Made by a program: the position numbers and the translations under genes. From assembly GCA_030611085.1 (NCBI GenBank), contig JAUWQI010000014.1:1-37047 (forward strand): 37,047 nt of DNA. Direction: 5' to 3'. The notes beneath the pieces were generated by a model. It was given only the letters and a program-made list of their open reading frames with translations, ran no database searches and was not told the DNA's origin. This DNA comes from Dehalococcoidia bacterium (GTDB taxonomy: Bacteria > Chloroflexota > Dehalococcoidia > GIF9 > AB-539-J10). Shown here piece after piece: positions 6,872-16,837 of the stretch (the stretch's first letter is position 1; each line of letters begins with the position of its first letter).

Positions 6872-7495
6872 TCAGTCAGGGCGAGATTTAGCTTGAAATG
6901 CTCTCTTCTCCTTTCCTCCATCATAATCTTCAGGGTATTCAGTTCTCATTTCATAGTCCCTATCATTGCAGGCGGTTATATTCATCTTAAGAACTCGATT
7001 CTCATATGGGTCACACCAGGTATCATGATATGCAGGGTCATCAGGAGGCTCATTGCAAGGCGGAACGATATTCGTCGCTATGAAAGTTGTTGCCTCAAGT
7101 AAATCATCATCAGGATAATAATGCTCCCGCACTAATTCCGTAAGCCCACTAGAGCCATAACTGTCAAGTTTATAAATAACCTTGTGTTGTTTAGTATCAT
7201 CTTCAGGGTCAGGCCATGTTAGGGTAAGAAACTTTGTTAAGTCACTATTATCTGGACTTACAGTCTGAGCCATGAGCACATCCCTGCTAATCCAGTGACC
7301 AGCGTTGCGCACTTGATTTATAGCGGTGTTTGTGTCATTGCTGAGTGTAGTACCGGTAAGCACTTGATGTATGCTCATAGCAGCGGCAGCGGCAATAATG
7401 CCCGTTAAGGCGATGACTATTATCAGTTCAAGCAGGGTGAAGCCCTTTTGGCTCCTCTCCAGTCTCCTTAGCATTGAAGGCTTTTTCATTTTCAT
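6872..7495 (-). CDS. Prepilin-like protein (type IV pilin/pseudopilin)
   Basis: A 207-residue protein with a class III signal: RSQKGFTLLELIIVIALTGI, with cleavage expected after Gly18 and Glu at +5 of the mature protein. The hydrophobic helix runs to about residue 45. The mature domain is acidic, with four Cys residues spread over CNEP, WCDP and ACND segments, and is about the size of PilW/GspJ-type minor pilins. The start is ATG at 7495, with a second in-frame ATG at 7489. It lies between the PilX-like and PilV-like genes. Confidence 0.85.
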   Translation of the reverse strand: MKMKKPSMLRRLERSQKGFTLLELIIVIALTGIIAAAAAMSIHQVLTGTTLSNDTNTAINQVRNAGHWISRDVLMAQTVSPDNSDLTKFLTLTWPDPEDDTKQHKVIYKLDSYGSSGLTELVREHYYPDDDLLEATTFIATNIVPPCNEPPDDPAYHDTWCDPYENRVLKMNITACNDRDYEMRTEYPEDYDGGKEKRAFQAKSRPD

Positions 7496-7763: not shown

Positions 7764-8219
7764 TCACCGGTTTACTTTATAGTCCTGCAATGTAAGCACT
7801 TCGTTTTCAATACAATCTTCATTATGATAAACGGTGACTGTTATCTTGCGAATGCCTTCTTCACTATCAATTTGTCCAGCCTCGACCTTAACGCAATAGC
7901 CAGCGTAGGCATCAGGAAGAGCATGACTCGAGTCAAACCAAGGTAATGGTGCATCTGATGAGCTAGAACCAGAGGTGGTAACTGTGTAAGACCAGCCAAC
8001 AACGGTGGAGTACTCCTGGCTCTTAACATACTCCATCTGGCTCGTAGCTAAGCTTTGAGCAGTTGAGCGCTCATCAGAGACGAAGACAGCTTTGAGAGAG
8101 GTGGACAAGCCGCCGAGAAAGGCAACGGCGATTACGCCCAGAATAGCCAGGGCTATTAGCACCTCAATAAGGCTTACACCCTTAGAGCTGCCTCGGAGAG
8201 CTTTCGTTATTTTGTTCAT
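7764..8219 (-). CDS. PilV/GspI-like prepilin
   Basis: A 151-residue prepilin: SSKGVSLIEVLIALAILGVI gives the cleavage site after Gly14 and Glu at +5. The hydrophobic helix is followed by LSTSLKAVFVSDERSTAQSLATSQMEYVKS, which resembles PilV/GspI-type minor pilins. The rest is a small beta-rich domain with two Cys. It is the first prepilin gene downstream of the TA-type modules that separate it from pilC. Confidence 0.85.
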   Translation of the reverse strand: MNKITKALRGSSKGVSLIEVLIALAILGVIAVAFLGGLSTSLKAVFVSDERSTAQSLATSQMEYVKSQEYSTVVGWSYTVTTSGSSSSDAPLPWFDSSHALPDAYAGYCVKVEAGQIDSEEGIRKITVTVYHNEDCIENEVLTLQDYKVNR

Positions 8220-9367: not shown

Positions 9368-10573
9368 CTATACCTGGCCATAGATGGAATACATAGCTGA
9401 AAGCAAAGCTATGGCGATAAGGCCAACTATCGCACCAATTATTACCGTCATAGCTGGAGTGATGAGGGCAACCATGGTCTTGGTTTTATCATCTGCCTCA
9501 ACTTCGTAGCTCTCAGCCACAGTGGTTAATGTGTTATCCAGGTTACCCGTGCCCTCGCCCACAGCAGTCATCTGTACCATAAGGGGCATAAAAAGCTTAT
9601 TCTTTGCCATAGGACCGGATAAGCCTCCGCCGGCAATCATACCTTGCTGGACTTCGGTTAATGCTAGTTCCATAGCTTTATTATTTGTGCCCTGAATTAC
9701 CATGGTCATTATTTCAGGCAGGGGTAAACCGCTGCCAAATAACAATGCCATACTGCGGCAGCAGCGTGAGAGCTCGTTAAGGAGGTTGATATGCCCGATG
9801 TGGGGGAAAGTAAGCATTAGCTTACCCCACTGCAACTTGCCCGCAGGCGTCTTGGTATAGGCATATCCCGCAGCAATGGCAGCCACTATGACCAACAAGA
9901 GCCAGATACCATAGCTCTGCAGCCAACTAGTGCCGGCGATAAACGCTCTGGTTATTGCAGGTAACTGGACATCAAAGGAAGCATACAGGCTGGTAAAGGC
10001 GGGTAGAACAAAAGTGACCATTATCCCGATAACTATAATAGCTAGAATTACAAGGATAGCAGGATAAACTAAGGCGCTCTTGACGCTTTTCTGGGTCGTA
10101 GCGGTCCTTTCCATATAATCAGCAGCTCGCCTTAATACCACTTCGAGATTTCCCGTTTTTTCCCCCACGGATACCAGCCGATGATAAAATGGAGGAAAGG
10201 CATGAGGATGCTTGCTCAGAGCTTGAGATAAAGGGCTGCCACCACGAACATCGTCAACTACCTCACCAATTATTTTCTTTAAGTTGCGATTGCTTATCTG
10301 AGCCTGTAATAGCTCTAAGGAGGTAACAACATCGGTACCTGATTCCAGCAATAAAGCTAACTGACGAGAGAACATTACTATCTCCATTGGGTTTATGCGG
10401 GAAAAGCGAGCAGTTAATTTTTCAGCCTGGAAAAATGGCGTGACTCCCTTGAGGCTAAGCACTCGATAGCCGCTATAGGCCAATATATCACTGGCGGCTT
10501 CTTCACCAGCGGCAGAAAGCTTGCCTTTGACTACTCTATTATCCTCAGTGCAGGCTACATAATGATAGTTCAT
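9368..10573 (-). CDS. pilC: Type IV pilus / type II secretion platform protein (PilC/GspF)
   Basis: A 401-residue inner-membrane protein with two T2SSF domains, at about 66-190 and 265-390, each ending in a hydrophobic hairpin. Visible features are MFSRQLALLLESGTDVVTSL (first domain), LVSVGEKTGNLEVVLRRAAD, and the matching LLNELSRCCRSMALLFGSGL and VGEGTGNLDNTLTTVAESYE of the second. It recruits the assembly ATPase to the pilus base. GAGGAG precedes the ATG at 10573. It is separated from pilB by 284 bases of repeats, which is unusual. Confidence 0.93.
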   Translation of the reverse strand: MNYHYVACTEDNRVVKGKLSAAGEEAASDILAYSGYRVLSLKGVTPFFQAEKLTARFSRINPMEIVMFSRQLALLLESGTDVVTSLELLQAQISNRNLKKIIGEVVDDVRGGSPLSQALSKHPHAFPPFYHRLVSVGEKTGNLEVVLRRAADYMERTATTQKSVKSALVYPAILVILAIIVIGIMVTFVLPAFTSLYASFDVQLPAITRAFIAGTSWLQSYGIWLLLVIVAAIAAGYAYTKTPAGKLQWGKLMLTFPHIGHINLLNELSRCCRSMALLFGSGLPLPEIMTMVIQGTNNKAMELALTEVQQGMIAGGGLSGPMAKNKLFMPLMVQMTAVGEGTGNLDNTLTTVAESYEVEADDKTKTMVALITPAMTVIIGAIVGLIAIALLSAMYSIYGQV

Positions 10574-10857: not shown

Positions 10858-13302
10858 CTACTCTATGGAATAAGCGTTGCGCAGGATTTCAGAAGGAGTG
10901 GTGATGTCTGCCTTTACTTTGAGCATGCCATCTTTAATCAGCGGCACCATCCCTTCCTCAATTGCCTGGTGTCGAATCTCAGCAGTACTGGCATGATTAA
11001 GTATTTGCATTCTTATCTTGTCGCTTATAGGTAAGATTTCAAAGAGTCCTGTTCTTCCTCGATACCCAGAATAGTTACATTGCTCACAGCCAGCGCCGTA
11101 GGGAAACTTGGTCCGTTTTTCCCCCATCTCCTTGGCATAAGCTAATTGCTCCATTAGGGGAGCTTCCTTATTGGTGGAGCAATCGGGGCAGATGCAGCGC
11201 ACCATACGTTGAGCCACCACACCAATAACTGCCGAAGATACCAGGAAGGGCTCTATGCCTAAATCGAGGAGGCGGAAGATAACGCCTATAGTATCATTAG
11301 CGTGGATAGAGGAGAGCACCAGATGCCCTGTTAAAGCTGACTGAATGGCTATCGCGGCAGTTTCAGCATCACGAATCTCGCCTATTAGTATAATATCGGG
11401 GTCGAGACGCAATATGGATCTTAAGCCGCGAGCGAAGGTAAGCCCCGCTTTAGGATTGACCTGAATTTGGTTCAAGTTAGCAAAGCGGTATTCCACAGGG
11501 TCTTCGATGGTGATTATGTTTCGGGAAACTTTATCCAGCTTATTTACCGAGGCATAAAGAGTGGTAGTTTTGCCTGCCCCGGTAGGACCACTGATTAAAA
11601 TCATGCCGAAAGGGACTTTAAGCATATTTTCATACTTAGCTAAAGCCCCAGGAGAAAAGCCTAGCTGAGGTAAATCTATAATGCCTAATGACTTATCCAG
11701 GAGGCGCAGCACCGTAGATTCACCACGCACAGTAGGGACGGTAGCAACACGAACATCTATAGGTCTGCCTTTAGACTCAATGGAAAACTGCCCATCTTGA
11801 GGGCGAAGATGGTCGGCAATATTCATATCAGCCATTATCTTGATTCGGGAGGTAAGGGGAAGATGTATTTTTGAGGGCAGGGACATAACATCCTGAAGGG
11901 TGCCATCAATGCGATAGCGAATCCTTAATTTATCCTCCTCAGGCTCAATGTGAATATCGGAGGCTCTGGCTTTACTTGCCTCGTCAATTATGATACGCAA
12001 GGCACTAGCTACTGGGGCATCCTCACTAGCCTCAATTAATGTTTGGCCCGCAACTGTCTCCGTGCCCGGAATGCGCAATATTTGTTCCTCCATTTGCCCA
12101 AAGCCTTTGTAATTGAAGTCAATGGCTTCCCGAACTTCCTTCTCACTGGCAGCTATAGGTTCTATGCGCATGCGGCTTTGTGATGCCAATGCCTCCAGGG
12201 CAAAGATGTCAGCAGGGTTTGCCATAGCCACTTGTAAAGTGTTATCTACAATAGCTATGGGCATGGCATTGAATTTTCTTGCCATAACTTCGGGAATCAA
12301 CTGTAAAGCTTCAGGCTGAGGTCTGCGATTGGGTGCTTTCTTCTCTGGTTGCTCCTCTGGAGCAGTGGGTAGTAAGTTCTCAACAGTGCTTTGTCTGGTT
12401 AATAATTCCTCAACAGCGCTTTGAAGGCTAGATATTTCCAGCTCTTGAGGAACTTCTTCAGCAAGTGGCTTTTGGCTTGCAGCTGTTTCCTGAGAAAGCT
12501 TCTGCCTAGCGGTAGATTCTCGCCCTTGTGGAGCCGCCTCTTCTGCAACGGGCGACTTCTCAGCCTGGCTGCCAAGTTTGATAACCCTTATCCTCTGCTG
12601 TTGAGCGAATTTCTCAGCTTCGGGGGTAAGTTTCCCCGAGATAAGCAGAACTTTGTTATACATCTCAGTGTCATAAGCCTTGGTATCAAATAAGGATACC
12701 CGGTTTAGGCTCACTTCGTCGTTATCTATTATATCTATACCCAGTTTGTGTACTATAAAGCCATCGTCCAGGTTGGCCAGAATATCGAAGGGATACTCTG
12801 TGCCAGACTTACCCTTGACCCTGGCATTTTCCTCCACATTGTAGCCAATGTCGATAAGAGCTCGCAGGAATTCAAGTTTTGTGTTAAACGCGGTAGGGGC
12901 AATTTTCTTACCTTGCCTTACAGGTGGTGAGGCTAAAAGGGCCTCCAATGCTTCCTTATCAAAGACTTTTATTCGCTGTGACTGAGCAAAACGAGCGGCT
13001 GCAGAATCGACTTTGGGAAAAGCTATAAGCACCTTATCTCGAATGCCACAGTCATAGCATTTATCATCGAAAGCGAAAACTTCACCCAAGCCCACCTCCT
13101 GGTTGTCCTCGTGTACAATGTCTACAGCCATGGTATAGGCGATAAAACCGTGGCTTTTATGTGCCAGAATGCCGAAGCTATGCTCAGCGCCAGATTTGCC
13201 CGTTGGGGTAGCATCGCGCTCCACTTCATAGCCGTGGCTTTCGAGCTTCTCTATAAGACGCTCTTCTAGCTTCGGTTTAGATTCTGACTTTAATCCCTGC
13301 AT
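10858..13302 (-). CDS. pilB: Pilus assembly ATPase (PilB/GspE) with two N-terminal Mrr-like domains
   Basis: An 814-residue protein. Residues 10-118 and 140-245 are a tandem pair of nuclease-like repeats: both have a GKSG-E-x-F-IL-A opening, a VDI or IDI strand and a FDDKCYD or FDTKAYD motif with Asp-x-Lys. Residues 246-330 are a Glu/Ala/Pro-rich linker. An MshEN-like domain covers about 330-400. The ATPase follows: Walker A GPTGAGKTT (572-580), ITIEDPVEY, Walker B ILIGEIRD, the His box GHLVLSSIHAND, and a zinc site of Cys705, Cys708, Cys739 and Cys742. It powers pilus or pseudopilus extension. The extra N-terminal domains are not part of standard PilB. Confidence 0.93.
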   Translation of the reverse strand: MQGLKSESKPKLEERLIEKLESHGYEVERDATPTGKSGAEHSFGILAHKSHGFIAYTMAVDIVHEDNQEVGLGEVFAFDDKCYDCGIRDKVLIAFPKVDSAAARFAQSQRIKVFDKEALEALLASPPVRQGKKIAPTAFNTKLEFLRALIDIGYNVEENARVKGKSGTEYPFDILANLDDGFIVHKLGIDIIDNDEVSLNRVSLFDTKAYDTEMYNKVLLISGKLTPEAEKFAQQQRIRVIKLGSQAEKSPVAEEAAPQGRESTARQKLSQETAASQKPLAEEVPQELEISSLQSAVEELLTRQSTVENLLPTAPEEQPEKKAPNRRPQPEALQLIPEVMARKFNAMPIAIVDNTLQVAMANPADIFALEALASQSRMRIEPIAASEKEVREAIDFNYKGFGQMEEQILRIPGTETVAGQTLIEASEDAPVASALRIIIDEASKARASDIHIEPEEDKLRIRYRIDGTLQDVMSLPSKIHLPLTSRIKIMADMNIADHLRPQDGQFSIESKGRPIDVRVATVPTVRGESTVLRLLDKSLGIIDLPQLGFSPGALAKYENMLKVPFGMILISGPTGAGKTTTLYASVNKLDKVSRNIITIEDPVEYRFANLNQIQVNPKAGLTFARGLRSILRLDPDIILIGEIRDAETAAIAIQSALTGHLVLSSIHANDTIGVIFRLLDLGIEPFLVSSAVIGVVAQRMVRCICPDCSTNKEAPLMEQLAYAKEMGEKRTKFPYGAGCEQCNYSGYRGRTGLFEILPISDKIRMQILNHASTAEIRHQAIEEGMVPLIKDGMLKVKADITTPSEILRNAYSIE

Positions 13303-13460: not shown

Positions 13461-13577
13461 CTATCTCCTCATCTCCTTATCTTCACCTTTTTTCTTCGGA
13501 ACCACATGCATCAATCTAAAGTTAATTGTAGTGGTGGCTGAGCTTGCTGTAAATAGCCTATTAGTCCCGATTGCCAT
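13461..13577 (-). CDS. Candidate small basic ORF upstream of pilB
   Basis: A 38-codon frame starting MAIGTNRLFTASSATTTINF, then RLMHVVPKKKGEDKEMRR. It ends 6 bases before the next small frame on the same strand. I see no clear ribosome binding site. It could be a gene remnant or a leader; no function is proposed. Confidence 0.2.
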   Translation of the reverse strand: MAIGTNRLFTASSATTTINFRLMHVVPKKKGEDKEMRR

Positions 13578-13594
13578 CGTATTTTAGTACTGTA

Positions 13595-13623
13595 TTGACA
13601 CGATGCGATTTATTGGCAATAAT
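13595..13623 (+). promoter_or_regulatory. Promoter of the beta-propeller gene
   Basis: TTGACA at 13595-13600, a 17-base spacer, then AATAAT at 13618-13623. Both hexamers are near consensus. Initiation would be expected at about 13630, at or next to the start codon, which would give a leaderless mRNA. Confidence 0.5.
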
Positions 13624-13627
13624 GCAT

Positions 13628-16600
13628 ATGGTGAGAAAGCTTGCATATTCGAAATTATGGATTTATTTGGTTACCTTACTCTTGCTTCTTAGCCTCTTTC
13701 CTTTAATAAGCAATAACCCAGTTTCAGCTAATCCCGGTAAGCTGGAGTGGTCCATTGTGGACACTCCCAGCGAAGAAGACTATGTGGTGCTTAGCCCCAG
13801 CGAAATAAACGCCATTGCGATTGGCTCCGATGATGAAACCTTCTATACCATAGATATTCCGAATGGCAAAGTTTACAAGTCAATCGATGCTGGTATCACC
13901 TGGAAAGACGACTTAACTGAGGCTCTCAGCGATGAAGGCGCTACTTTGCCCGCATGGGATATAGCTGTGGCGCCGGACAATCCAGAATTGGTAGCTGTGG
14001 TTACCAATGCCAGGCAAGAAGTTTATGTCTCCGGAGATGGTGGAGATAGCTGGATGGACACCGATATTTCGGAGGCTGCAGGCTGGGGTGCCAGTTTGCT
14101 CATTGCCGATATCACCTTCTCCCCGAAATATACAAAAGATGGCAATAGTAGATGGGATATTGCCATAGGCACAAGAAAGCCCGATGGTAGCACCAACGGC
14201 GATGTCTGGGTGAGACGGCTGCTAGTGGATGAGGGGCGCATTGCATTCGTTGAGGGATGGGATGCTCAAGAATTGAATATGGATGTCACCTCGGTTTGCT
14301 TCTCACCCAATTATTCCACAGATAATAACACCATACTGGCTGTTGCCAGTGATGTTGATGACACTTATCTCTGCACCGGGACGAGGAATATCAATACAAA
14401 TACCACAGATTGGAATGTGACCACCCCCAGTGTGGTGGAGATAAGCGAAGCCCCAGAAGATTCACCTAGCCAAAGCCAGATCATATTCTCAGACCTGGCG
14501 CTGCCTTCAAATTATTCGGGGAAAGCTGCAAGCAGTCGCACTGTATATGCCAGCTATAGCGCAGAAAACACGACCGCTGATGATGTTTACCTTATAGATG
14601 ATAATGATGCCTTCAGGATGAACGTAAAAGGCGACGAAGGGGTTCCCATAGCCTCCATTGCTTATAACAATGGCAAGCTCCTGGCTGGAGGAATGACTAA
14701 TATAGCAGGTACAGCCAATGCTTTAATTCGCATTTGTGCCAATCCTGTGGTTTGCCCTCTCAAACCGAAATGGGAAAGTCCAAGTAAGCCACCCACGGGA
14801 GGCGCTGTTTCCGGCTATGCCAACGCTCAAGTTGCCTGGAGTAGTAATGGCGAGATGGCTTACTGCGGAACCAGCAGTAGTAATGTAGCGAGCGCCAGTG
14901 ATTGGGCAGATACAGATGTATCCAGCGGTCATCCTTGGTCTGGTACCAGACTCGATGAGAGCGCCTTCTCCCGAAGCGACGATGATGGCGATACCTGGAA
15001 TCAACTTAGCCTCATAGATACTGAAATGGAATACCTTCGCGATTCTGCTCTATCAGTGGATACTGAAGGTACCAAGACTCTTTATTATCTTTACCTGGCT
15101 TCAACGGGCAGCGGCTTTGATAGCATATGGCGAAGCGAAAGCAAAACACTGGATGAAGAAACTTTGGAAAATTTGGATTGGGAGAGGATATTATGCTTGA
15201 ATAGCAAAACTGACGATATAATTCTGAGGCCAAGTGCTAAGAAAGATGAGCTGAGGCTTTTTCTTGCAGTTCGCGGTACTGACGATGTACGCTATTTTGA
15301 TAAGGATACCCAGGGTAAATGGCAATGGGAGCGATTCTGGGATTGCCCCGATGTTACTGACCTGGCTGTGGTCAATGATGAAATGTTTTATGTCCTCGAT
15401 GACAATGAAGTCAATAAATGTTCCTGGAATGAGGAACTGTGGGGAGGTATATGGGAATGGCAAAGAGACATAGATACCGGGTTGCGTCATGGATATACCA
15501 TAGCCGCAAGCGGTAAGAATTCTGTCTTCGTTGGTGAGAGCGAAAATGGCGAAAGCAGAATAGCTTATTCCACTAATGGTGGAGCCACTTTTAAACTTAC
15601 CAAGGCTGTACCCGAACCAGGCAACATATGGGGGACACCCGATGAGGAATTCGCCAGCAATCGGTTTATTTACGTTGCCAGTGAAGGATATGGAATTTAT
15701 CGGTGGGCTATTGGAAGAAGCACTTCATGGGAGAACCTAAATCTCGGATGTTGTTTGAGCTGTTATGGTTTGGCACAAAAGGGAGGTGCCCTTTACGGAC
15801 TTTGTAGGTTTGGCATTAGTCGCACCTTAATCCCCCATGAAGAAATAGTTACTCCCAGCGACTGGGATAGCCTTACTGTAGGGCTACCAGAGCCGCCAAA
15901 GAATCCTGTTGCCTTCAAGCCCGGCTCACTAAAGGCGCTGAAGGTAATAGGCAAGGATATCATAGCCTTACGAGCAATTGACGACAATGAATACTTCAGT
16001 GGCACTTTAGACCCCGATGCCTCGGGGTATGACCCCAATGTAGGCCGCCTTTGGATTTACTCTGATATCTTTGTCCTGCGAGCCCCCTGGCCAACTTCTC
16101 CGGCTCTAGGCAAGTTGCTGCCATGCGACCACTGCACTTGCCAGGCTGAGGTGTTTTGCTTCCATTGGCGAAGATTACCCTTAGCTGAGAAATATGACTT
16201 GTGGATAGCACTGGATGAAGAATTTACTGCCATACTAATCAAGGTGGGGAATATGACTCCTGATGACCTCTATAGTCCAGCGTGGTGTCCCCCTACAGGT
16301 TCTCCCCGCCTTACTTGTGGCAAAACTTATTACTGGAAGGTGAGAAGCTGCCAAAGCACTGAAGATGAGCGGGTTCACAGCAGGTGGTCACCGCCAATGC
16401 ACTTTACGGTGAAAACCTGCAGTTCAGTAGAAGAGATGCATCTTGCCCCTTTACTGAAGGCTCCACAGAAGGGCGGCAAGAATGTTTCCAGGTCGCCCGG
16501 GTTCTCCTGGATAGGCTTCCCTGACACAACAAAATATGAATTTGTCCTGGCTAACGATGCCGCTTTAACGCAGATAGTGGTTAAAGAAGAAGTGTCTACC

Positions 16601-16837
16601 TCTGCTTACCACTACAGCGATAGGCTTGACTGGGGGGCAACCTACTTCTGGCAGGTGAAAGCCATTGAACCAGTGCCTAGCGAGCCTGCTACAGGCACTT
16701 TTACTGTTAAGCCAGAGCCAGCCGCGCTGCCAGCGCTGCCAGCAGCGCCTGGGACTCCGCTTTGGATATGGCTTGTCATTGGCACACTTTCCTTATTGAT
16801 TATAGTGGTTATTGTGCTTTGCTTTGTCAAGCGGTAG
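13628..16837 (+). CDS. Exported beta-propeller protein with C-terminal membrane anchor
   Basis: About 1069 residues. The N-terminus has a basic start, a hydrophobic core (LWIYLVTLLLLLSLFPLI) and a likely cleavage after VSA. The next 750 residues have repeated Asp-box/BNR-like or YCF48-like blades, for example KVYKSIDAGITWKDD, VYVSGDGGDSWMD, FSRSDDDGDTWNQ and IAYSTNGGATFK. Two fibronectin-like domains follow, each with a YDLWIALDEEF or YEFVLANDAAL opening and a YYWKV or YFWQV strand. A Pro/Ala linker leads to a C-terminal membrane helix (LWIWLVIGTLSLLIIVVIVL) and KR. It is probably an anchored cell-surface protein. The longer frame from TTG 13571 seems less likely than ATG 13622 or 13628. Confidence 0.75.
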   Translation: MVRKLAYSKLWIYLVTLLLLLSLFPLISNNPVSANPGKLEWSIVDTPSEEDYVVLSPSEINAIAIGSDDETFYTIDIPNGKVYKSIDAGITWKDDLTEALSDEGATLPAWDIAVAPDNPELVAVVTNARQEVYVSGDGGDSWMDTDISEAAGWGASLLIADITFSPKYTKDGNSRWDIAIGTRKPDGSTNGDVWVRRLLVDEGRIAFVEGWDAQELNMDVTSVCFSPNYSTDNNTILAVASDVDDTYLCTGTRNINTNTTDWNVTTPSVVEISEAPEDSPSQSQIIFSDLALPSNYSGKAASSRTVYASYSAENTTADDVYLIDDNDAFRMNVKGDEGVPIASIAYNNGKLLAGGMTNIAGTANALIRICANPVVCPLKPKWESPSKPPTGGAVSGYANAQVAWSSNGEMAYCGTSSSNVASASDWADTDVSSGHPWSGTRLDESAFSRSDDDGDTWNQLSLIDTEMEYLRDSALSVDTEGTKTLYYLYLASTGSGFDSIWRSESKTLDEETLENLDWERILCLNSKTDDIILRPSAKKDELRLFLAVRGTDDVRYFDKDTQGKWQWERFWDCPDVTDLAVVNDEMFYVLDDNEVNKCSWNEELWGGIWEWQRDIDTGLRHGYTIAASGKNSVFVGESENGESRIAYSTNGGATFKLTKAVPEPGNIWGTPDEEFASNRFIYVASEGYGIYRWAIGRSTSWENLNLGCCLSCYGLAQKGGALYGLCRFGISRTLIPHEEIVTPSDWDSLTVGLPEPPKNPVAFKPGSLKALKVIGKDIIALRAIDDNEYFSGTLDPDASGYDPNVGRLWIYSDIFVLRAPWPTSPALGKLLPCDHCTCQAEVFCFHWRRLPLAEKYDLWIALDEEFTAILIKVGNMTPDDLYSPAWCPPTGSPRLTCGKTYYWKVRSCQSTEDERVHSRWSPPMHFTVKTCSSVEEMHLAPLLKAPQKGGKNVSRSPGFSWIGFPDTTKYEFVLANDAALTQIVVKEEVSTSAYHYSDRLDWGATYFWQVKAIEPVPSEPATGTFTVKPEPAALPALPAAPGTPLWIWLVIGTLSLLIIVVIVLCFVKR

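Follow-up and report, generated by a model that had tools for sequence, protein, structure and literature searches.

A tandem pair of probably inactive Mrr-type domains in place of the MshEN_N half of PilB-type pilus ATPases in one Dehalococcoidia clade

In model systems, the N1 domain of PilB is a regulatory domain that faces the stator; in pilus motors, this part of the extension ATPase is poorly understood (PMC11656802). Its c-di-GMP-binding half is MshEN_N, a receptor that is defined by two 24-residue motifs (PMC5013675). A second domain with links to pili is TackOD1 (PF18551, arCOG06883), a double-zinc-ribbon domain that was defined in archaea and is known there from type IV pilus loci, thaumarchaeal ones among them, and from two-component systems, including links to REC domains (PMC5847659, PMC4858521). 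A term search of these two papers returned no mention of Mrr or restriction endonuclease (REase) domains in connection with TackOD1. Inactive families of the REase fold have been described as well, such as NA-iREase1 (NACHT-associated inactive restriction endonuclease, PF22722). In the open-access literature that was searched, which mostly did not extend to subscription journals, there was no description of Mrr together with PilB, or of type IV pili together with an inactive restriction-endonuclease fold.

The window that was analysed here is a stretch of 37,047 nucleotides from a 1.16-Mb metagenome-assembled genome (labelled G000:C7) of the Dehalococcoidia, a class of mostly uncultured bacteria. 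The protein under study and its parts, together with the pilus genes that follow it, are:

10858..13302, minus strand: PilB/GspE-type assembly ATPase of 814 aa with an N-terminal tandem Mrr-fold pair (ORF, Pfam)
12940..13269, minus strand: Mrr-type, probably inactive REase domain D1, residues 12-121 (Pfam, profile, AF2)
12559..12882, minus strand: Mrr-type, probably inactive REase domain D2, residues 141-248 (Pfam, profile, AF2)
12331..12558, minus strand: low-complexity linker, residues 249-324, at the place of MshEN_N in an ordinary PilB
12106..12330, minus strand: MshEN_C/N2-like domain, residues 325-399 (Pfam MshEN, profile positions 10-85)
10879..12030, minus strand: T2SSE motor domain, residues 425-808 (Pfam; Walker A, GEIRD and zinc motifs intact)
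9368..10573, minus strand: PilC (T2SSF) platform protein, the next gene downstream on the same strand (Pfam T2SSF, 7e-59)
7764..8219, minus strand: prepilin-like protein (N_methyl, 9.6e-7)
6872..7495, minus strand: prepilin-like protein (N_methyl, 1.1e-8)

The reading frame has no internal stop, and the region 12550-13302 corresponds to residues 1-251. Pfam recognised T2SSE (E=1.5e-122), MshEN (6e-16) and Mrr_cat (1e-7) in the protein. The motor has the Walker A/B and zinc motifs that characterise the PilB/GspE assembly ATPases, with Walker A (GPTGAGKT) at residue 572, GEIRD at residue 641 and the zinc pairs CPDC/CEQC all intact. In NCBIfam, the C-terminal part fell in the GspE/PilB family but under both equivalog cut-offs (521.9 bits against 630 for GspE and 500.4 against 676 for PilB), and hence the assignment is safe at the level of the family, but not at that of an equivalog name. 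The protein is like the PilB, MshE and GspE ATPases (TIGR02538, TIGR02533, PF05157) in its motor, MshEN_C/N2, zinc motif and pilC-prepilin neighbourhood, but, unlike in these, the c-di-GMP-binding four-helix MshEN_N is replaced by the tandem Mrr pair. A second T2SSE match, whose type was not assigned, is present in the same genome, and pilT was verified in the relatives G155 and G356.

The original prediction, which had described residues 10-118 and 140-245 as a duplicated alpha/beta unit of the Mrr-type restriction-endonuclease fold attached to PilB, was borne out in all three respects, with profile borders at residues 12-121 and 141-248. D1 and D2 share 46% identity over 91 aa (BLASTP, E=6e-26). 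The pair matched Mrr_cat (PF04471) with 37.8 bits (E=2.3e-9; curated cut-off 21 bits), while singly D1 scored 27.7 bits, which is above the cut-off, and D2 14.3 bits (E=0.046), which is below it; each single domain from a set of 15 family members matched Mrr_cat. Moreover, when a profile of 140 copies of the module was aligned using hhalign with one of 27 canonical Mrr domains from the same class, the probability was 96.6% (E=5e-10). The AF2 model of the pair, which was built on two sequences only (pLDDT 72, pTM 0.64, far better than the other four models), shows the order alpha-beta-beta-beta-alpha-beta-alpha-beta in both halves, with less clarity in the second. Its nearest PDB entry was AF1548 (1y88; Foldseek E=1e-5), with a Z of 14.4 over 112 residues of D1 compared with 10.0 for the next-best match, and a resemblance to the REase domains of Cdn1, Can2 and Card1 was also found by fold comparison. 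A model of a single domain from a 4-row alignment (pLDDT 61) was left out of the fold searches. Sequence searches of the PDB with the module gave no significant match, and only the fold comparison gave one. Together, the sequence profiles and the predicted structure confirm the pair as a tandem duplication of an Mrr-type PD-(D/E)xK domain. Among the extracted reading frames, the Mrr domains and the ATPase were found in one continuous protein in dozens of genomes, including closed ones; because this domain order recurs so widely, and in several single-contig genomes, the fusion is not an assembly artefact.

Although the module is like the Mrr_cat restriction endonucleases in fold and sequence profile, it is unlike them in its active site. 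The canonical Mrr site combines a Glu on alpha1 and the Asp of 'GID' with a Q-x-K on the strand that follows. Alignment with the 27 canonical domains sets iAIxI of the module against the catalytic strand vQxK, a register on which the profile-profile and the joint multiple alignments agree. The active-site Asp is retained in 127 of the 140 domain copies, but the catalytic Lys column has Lys in only four, the other residues there being Leu, Ala, Glu or Ile. A Lys or Arg replaces the canonical alpha1 Glu in 114 copies. D1 of the window protein has Gly44 at the Asp position, Asp61, and Val63 at the Lys position, and D2 keeps Asp173 and Asp190 with Ile192 at the Lys position. The D...(D/E/Q)xK nuclease site with its catalytic Lys is thus absent from the module, and, since just 4/140 copies have Lys at the true catalytic column, both domains are, judging from their sequences, most likely dead as nucleases. 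Another difference from Mrr_cat is that the module nearly always occurs in tandem and has a new helix motif, which in the window is found at:

13051..13071, minus strand: FDDKCYD, residues 78-84 of D1, a family-specific helix motif rather than a nuclease motif (column counts, register)
12670..12690, minus strand: FDTKAYD, residues 205-211, the same helix motif in D2 (column counts, register)

These are the Asp-x-Lys motifs that had been taken as signs of a nuclease fold. They lie where they had been placed and are conserved, as the family motif F-D-x-K-A-Y-D has Lys or Arg in 128/140 copies, but it sits on the helix that follows the active-site strand and was absent from the canonical Mrr domains examined; going by this register, it is not the PD-(D/E)xK signature, and it is probably functionally important. 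The suggestion of a degenerate interaction module gained support and could be extended.

To determine what the pair stands in for, MshEN_N was sought using a scored motif with a maximum of 11. In nine of ten ordinary Dehalococcoidia PilBs, the best score was 7-9, and the two motifs had a spacing of 29 residues; the tenth, from G190, is a divergent protein of 544 aa. The tandem motif pair was found in none of the 34 Mrr-PilBs, whose best scores were 4-7, and the window protein, with a best score of 5, lacks the two motifs of a c-di-GMP receptor. Between the Mrr pair and the motor, the Mrr-PilBs have 117-642 residues of low-complexity linker and MshEN_C. Two of the proteins, of 1169 and 1282 aa (loci L042 and L043, genomes G213 and G203), have 474 and 642 residues there. 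A further group of short PilBs (n=11, 518-533 aa) has neither MshEN_N (scores of 3-5) nor Mrr. In a motor-domain tree, which came from a quick search with SH-aLRT support and without bootstrap, the Mrr-PilBs and the short PilBs formed one clade (SH-aLRT 100) that was separate from the MshEN_N PilBs, and therefore the loss of MshEN_N marks one PilB lineage. The Mrr pair has replaced the MshEN_N half of N1 as a domain swap within this clade. Genome G256 has one PilB of each kind. In G229 and G372, a short PilB was found with neither the fused module nor a TackOD1-Mrr protein seen, which indicates that the clade can do without the module.

The presence of GGDEF domains did not separate the genomes with an Mrr-PilB from the others. 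In several genomes, a GGDEF protein of about 1000 aa was observed at most about 10 kb away from pilB-Mrr or TackOD1-Mrr, which suggests that c-di-GMP metabolism stays by the pilus genes despite the loss of MshEN_N:

L034 10843-13884, minus strand: GGDEF protein with an HD-GYP-like end (read by eye)
G155:C11:68596, G188:C32:18545, G330:C54:68476 and G048:C39:11135: further GGDEF sites

The module also occurs in a second family of about 453 aa, in which TackOD1 is followed by the Mrr pair, and some versions, e.g., in L040, have a response-regulator receiver domain added in front. TackOD1 was above the cut-off 39 times in the class, with the Mrr pair directly after it by position in 36; a 37th case (G188) was confirmed at the protein level, and the remaining two matches are partial. 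The Dehalococcoidia TackOD1 is like the archaeal one in its double zinc ribbon and its links to pilus loci and receiver domains, but differs in bearing a C-terminal Mrr pair; because TackOD1 was already reported from archaeal pilus loci, its link to pili is independent of the present analysis. In nine genomes, the TackOD1-Mrr-Mrr gene is directly upstream of a short PilB that has no MshEN_N or Mrr. The gap between the two genes is 9-27 nt in seven of these genomes and 167 nt in another, and in the remaining one possible starts overlap. Besides these, about nine genomes have TackOD1-Mrr near pilD, pilT or pilM. It lies beside or near one of pilB, pilD, pilT or pilM in about 19 genomes; in the window's own genome (L034), it is beside the prepilin peptidase gene. 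Fused and split forms occur in one locus in G177, with three tandem Roadblock/LC7-like genes between them (L104, 11292-13051, minus strand) that have a weak MAPKK1_Int match under the cut-off. A similar gene is upstream of pilB in G086 (L046, 4905-5324). In G381 (L114), TackOD1-Mrr occurs in a genome with three PilBs, all of which are without Mrr and none of which is adjacent. In the module tree, the PilB-borne and TackOD1-borne copies split once (support 94), and hence frequent exchange of the module between the two proteins was rejected. Family f16, which includes closed genomes, has an Mrr-PilB but no TackOD1 protein, and so TackOD1 cannot be a universal partner.

The module was present in 65 of the 393 sampled Dehalococcoidia genomes, and the 18 positive genomes among 400 sampled Chloroflexota were all Dehalococcoidia. 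Beyond Chloroflexota, the scope was a single scan using exact short patterns, which is uninformative on distribution; this contig scan returned one close relative, 'Dehalococcoidia bacterium CG2_30_46_9'. Genome G086 encodes a PilB fusion with four Mrr domains. No relative of the module was found among the viral contigs, the plasmids or in PADLOC, and thus nothing points to an origin in mobile elements or defence systems. The likeness to NA-iREase1 is that of one inactive REase-fold family to another: one TackOD1-Mrr protein scored 28.2 bits against the PF22722 cut-off of 27, and one of 15 members matched when scanned singly. Unlike NA-iREase1, however, the module has no NACHT or defence context and no PADLOC match, and the window protein, which had neither a PF22722 match nor a NACHT domain in Pfam, is not a member of that family.

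We consider it the best explanation, with a probability of roughly two in three, that a catalytically dead Mrr module replaced MshEN_N in one clade of Dehalococcoidia PilBs and that it docks or controls the motor. As N1 is regulatory and faces the stator in model systems, docking or regulation of the motor as a substitute N1 domain is, by analogy, the most likely role of the pair. It would sit at the periphery of the PilB hexamer, where it would dock and control the motor by holding it to a partner, presumably a cytoplasmic regulator or the PilM/PilN stator; such docking may determine the timing of pilus extension. Some lineages encode TackOD1-Mrr as a separate protein upstream of pilB, which probably acts in trans on the same motor and is the strongest candidate for a trans-acting counterpart of the Mrr part. 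A broader proposal, to which we give somewhat less than even odds, is that the pair is an undescribed receptor or adaptor that is interchangeable with MshEN_N and shared by the motor (in cis) and the TackOD1 regulator (in trans), with extension answering a signal other than c-di-GMP. If this receptor or adaptor reading is true, extension in these Dehalococcoidia is governed by that other signal. The replacement of the c-di-GMP half of N1 by an unrelated fold, which is elsewhere on a neighbouring gene, offers a clean test of the requirement for N1, and TackOD1, whose function in archaeal pilus loci is obscure, is now placed next to pilB in bacteria, with a concrete hypothesis for its role.

One point against docking is that Asp173 and Asp190 of D2 are near-invariant, which is beyond the need of a pure scaffold. 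Among 33 PilB-borne D2 copies, Asp occupies the Asp173 position in 28 and that of Asp190 in 32, and 31 have Lys at Lys208. Taken together with the known migration of the catalytic Lys within the PD-(D/E)xK superfamily, this could mean that D2 of PilB is still a nuclease that holds a metal on Asp173 and Asp190 and uses the helix Lys208 (FDTK) instead of the strand Lys. We regard this as very improbable, because in 31-32 of the 37 TackOD1-borne copies Gly stands in for Asp190, but these copies keep the helix motif, which is therefore not tied to a two-Asp metal site; moreover, Lys or Arg has taken the place of the canonical alpha1 Glu, and a nuclease would bring no obvious gain to a pilus motor. 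A ligand-binding role would also fit the data. The pair may bind a small ligand, such as a nucleotide or second messenger, in the old active site and thus be a sensor that replaced the c-di-GMP receptor. It occupies the place of a nucleotide receptor, polar residues are conserved family-wide (S-G at 37/38, H/Y at 41, Asp at the 44 position and F-D-x-K-A-Y-D), and its fold is like that of the REase domains of Cdn1, Can2 and Card1, which are activated by cyclic oligoadenylates. In those proteins, however, the ligand is bound by a domain other than the REase, we know of no ligand for Mrr-fold domains themselves, and the Asp is lost in D1 of the window (Gly44), which makes a sensor unlikely.

Binding of DNA without cutting it, which would couple the pilus to DNA uptake or the nucleoid, appears improbable to us. 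The Mrr ancestry speaks for it, as does the presence of ComEC and type IV pili in the same genomes, but ComEC is also found in genomes with an MshEN_N PilB, and the pair is acidic (median net charge of -2.5 per 100 aa compared with +0.8 in canonical Mrr). Both of these arguments are weak; to our knowledge, there is also no path for DNA through the cytoplasmic pilus motor. The role in DNA uptake that had been put forward for the module is thus unsupported. That the pair is a functionless, passive remnant of a gene fusion is scarcely credible. The conserved Asp is gone in D1 of the window, there is a stop inside the module copy of G113 and only one domain in G356, but across many families, in which the identity of the module is 34-78%, the motifs are strongly conserved in both copies, and such retention is not random decay.

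Two further neighbours of the pilus genes were noted. The first is encoded next to the window's pilB, in the opposite direction:

13571..16837, plus strand: divergent large protein of 1088 aa (signal and anchor from the sequence; weak Sortilin-Vps10 match)

It has an apparent N-terminal signal and a C-terminal anchor, its Sortilin-Vps10 match is below the cut-off, and 12 other loci examined have a homologue next to pilB or TackOD1-Mrr, whether the form is fused or split. It is a candidate pilus-associated surface protein. The other is a LuxR-type response regulator, a candidate for another partner of the Mrr pair, whose gene is directly upstream of pilB in f16 and several other families. It was observed directly upstream of pilB-Mrr in L036, L037, L047, L049, L050, L105, L107-L111, L115 and L116, and in the genome of the window a homologue is located beside the prepilin peptidase (L034, 2155-2829).
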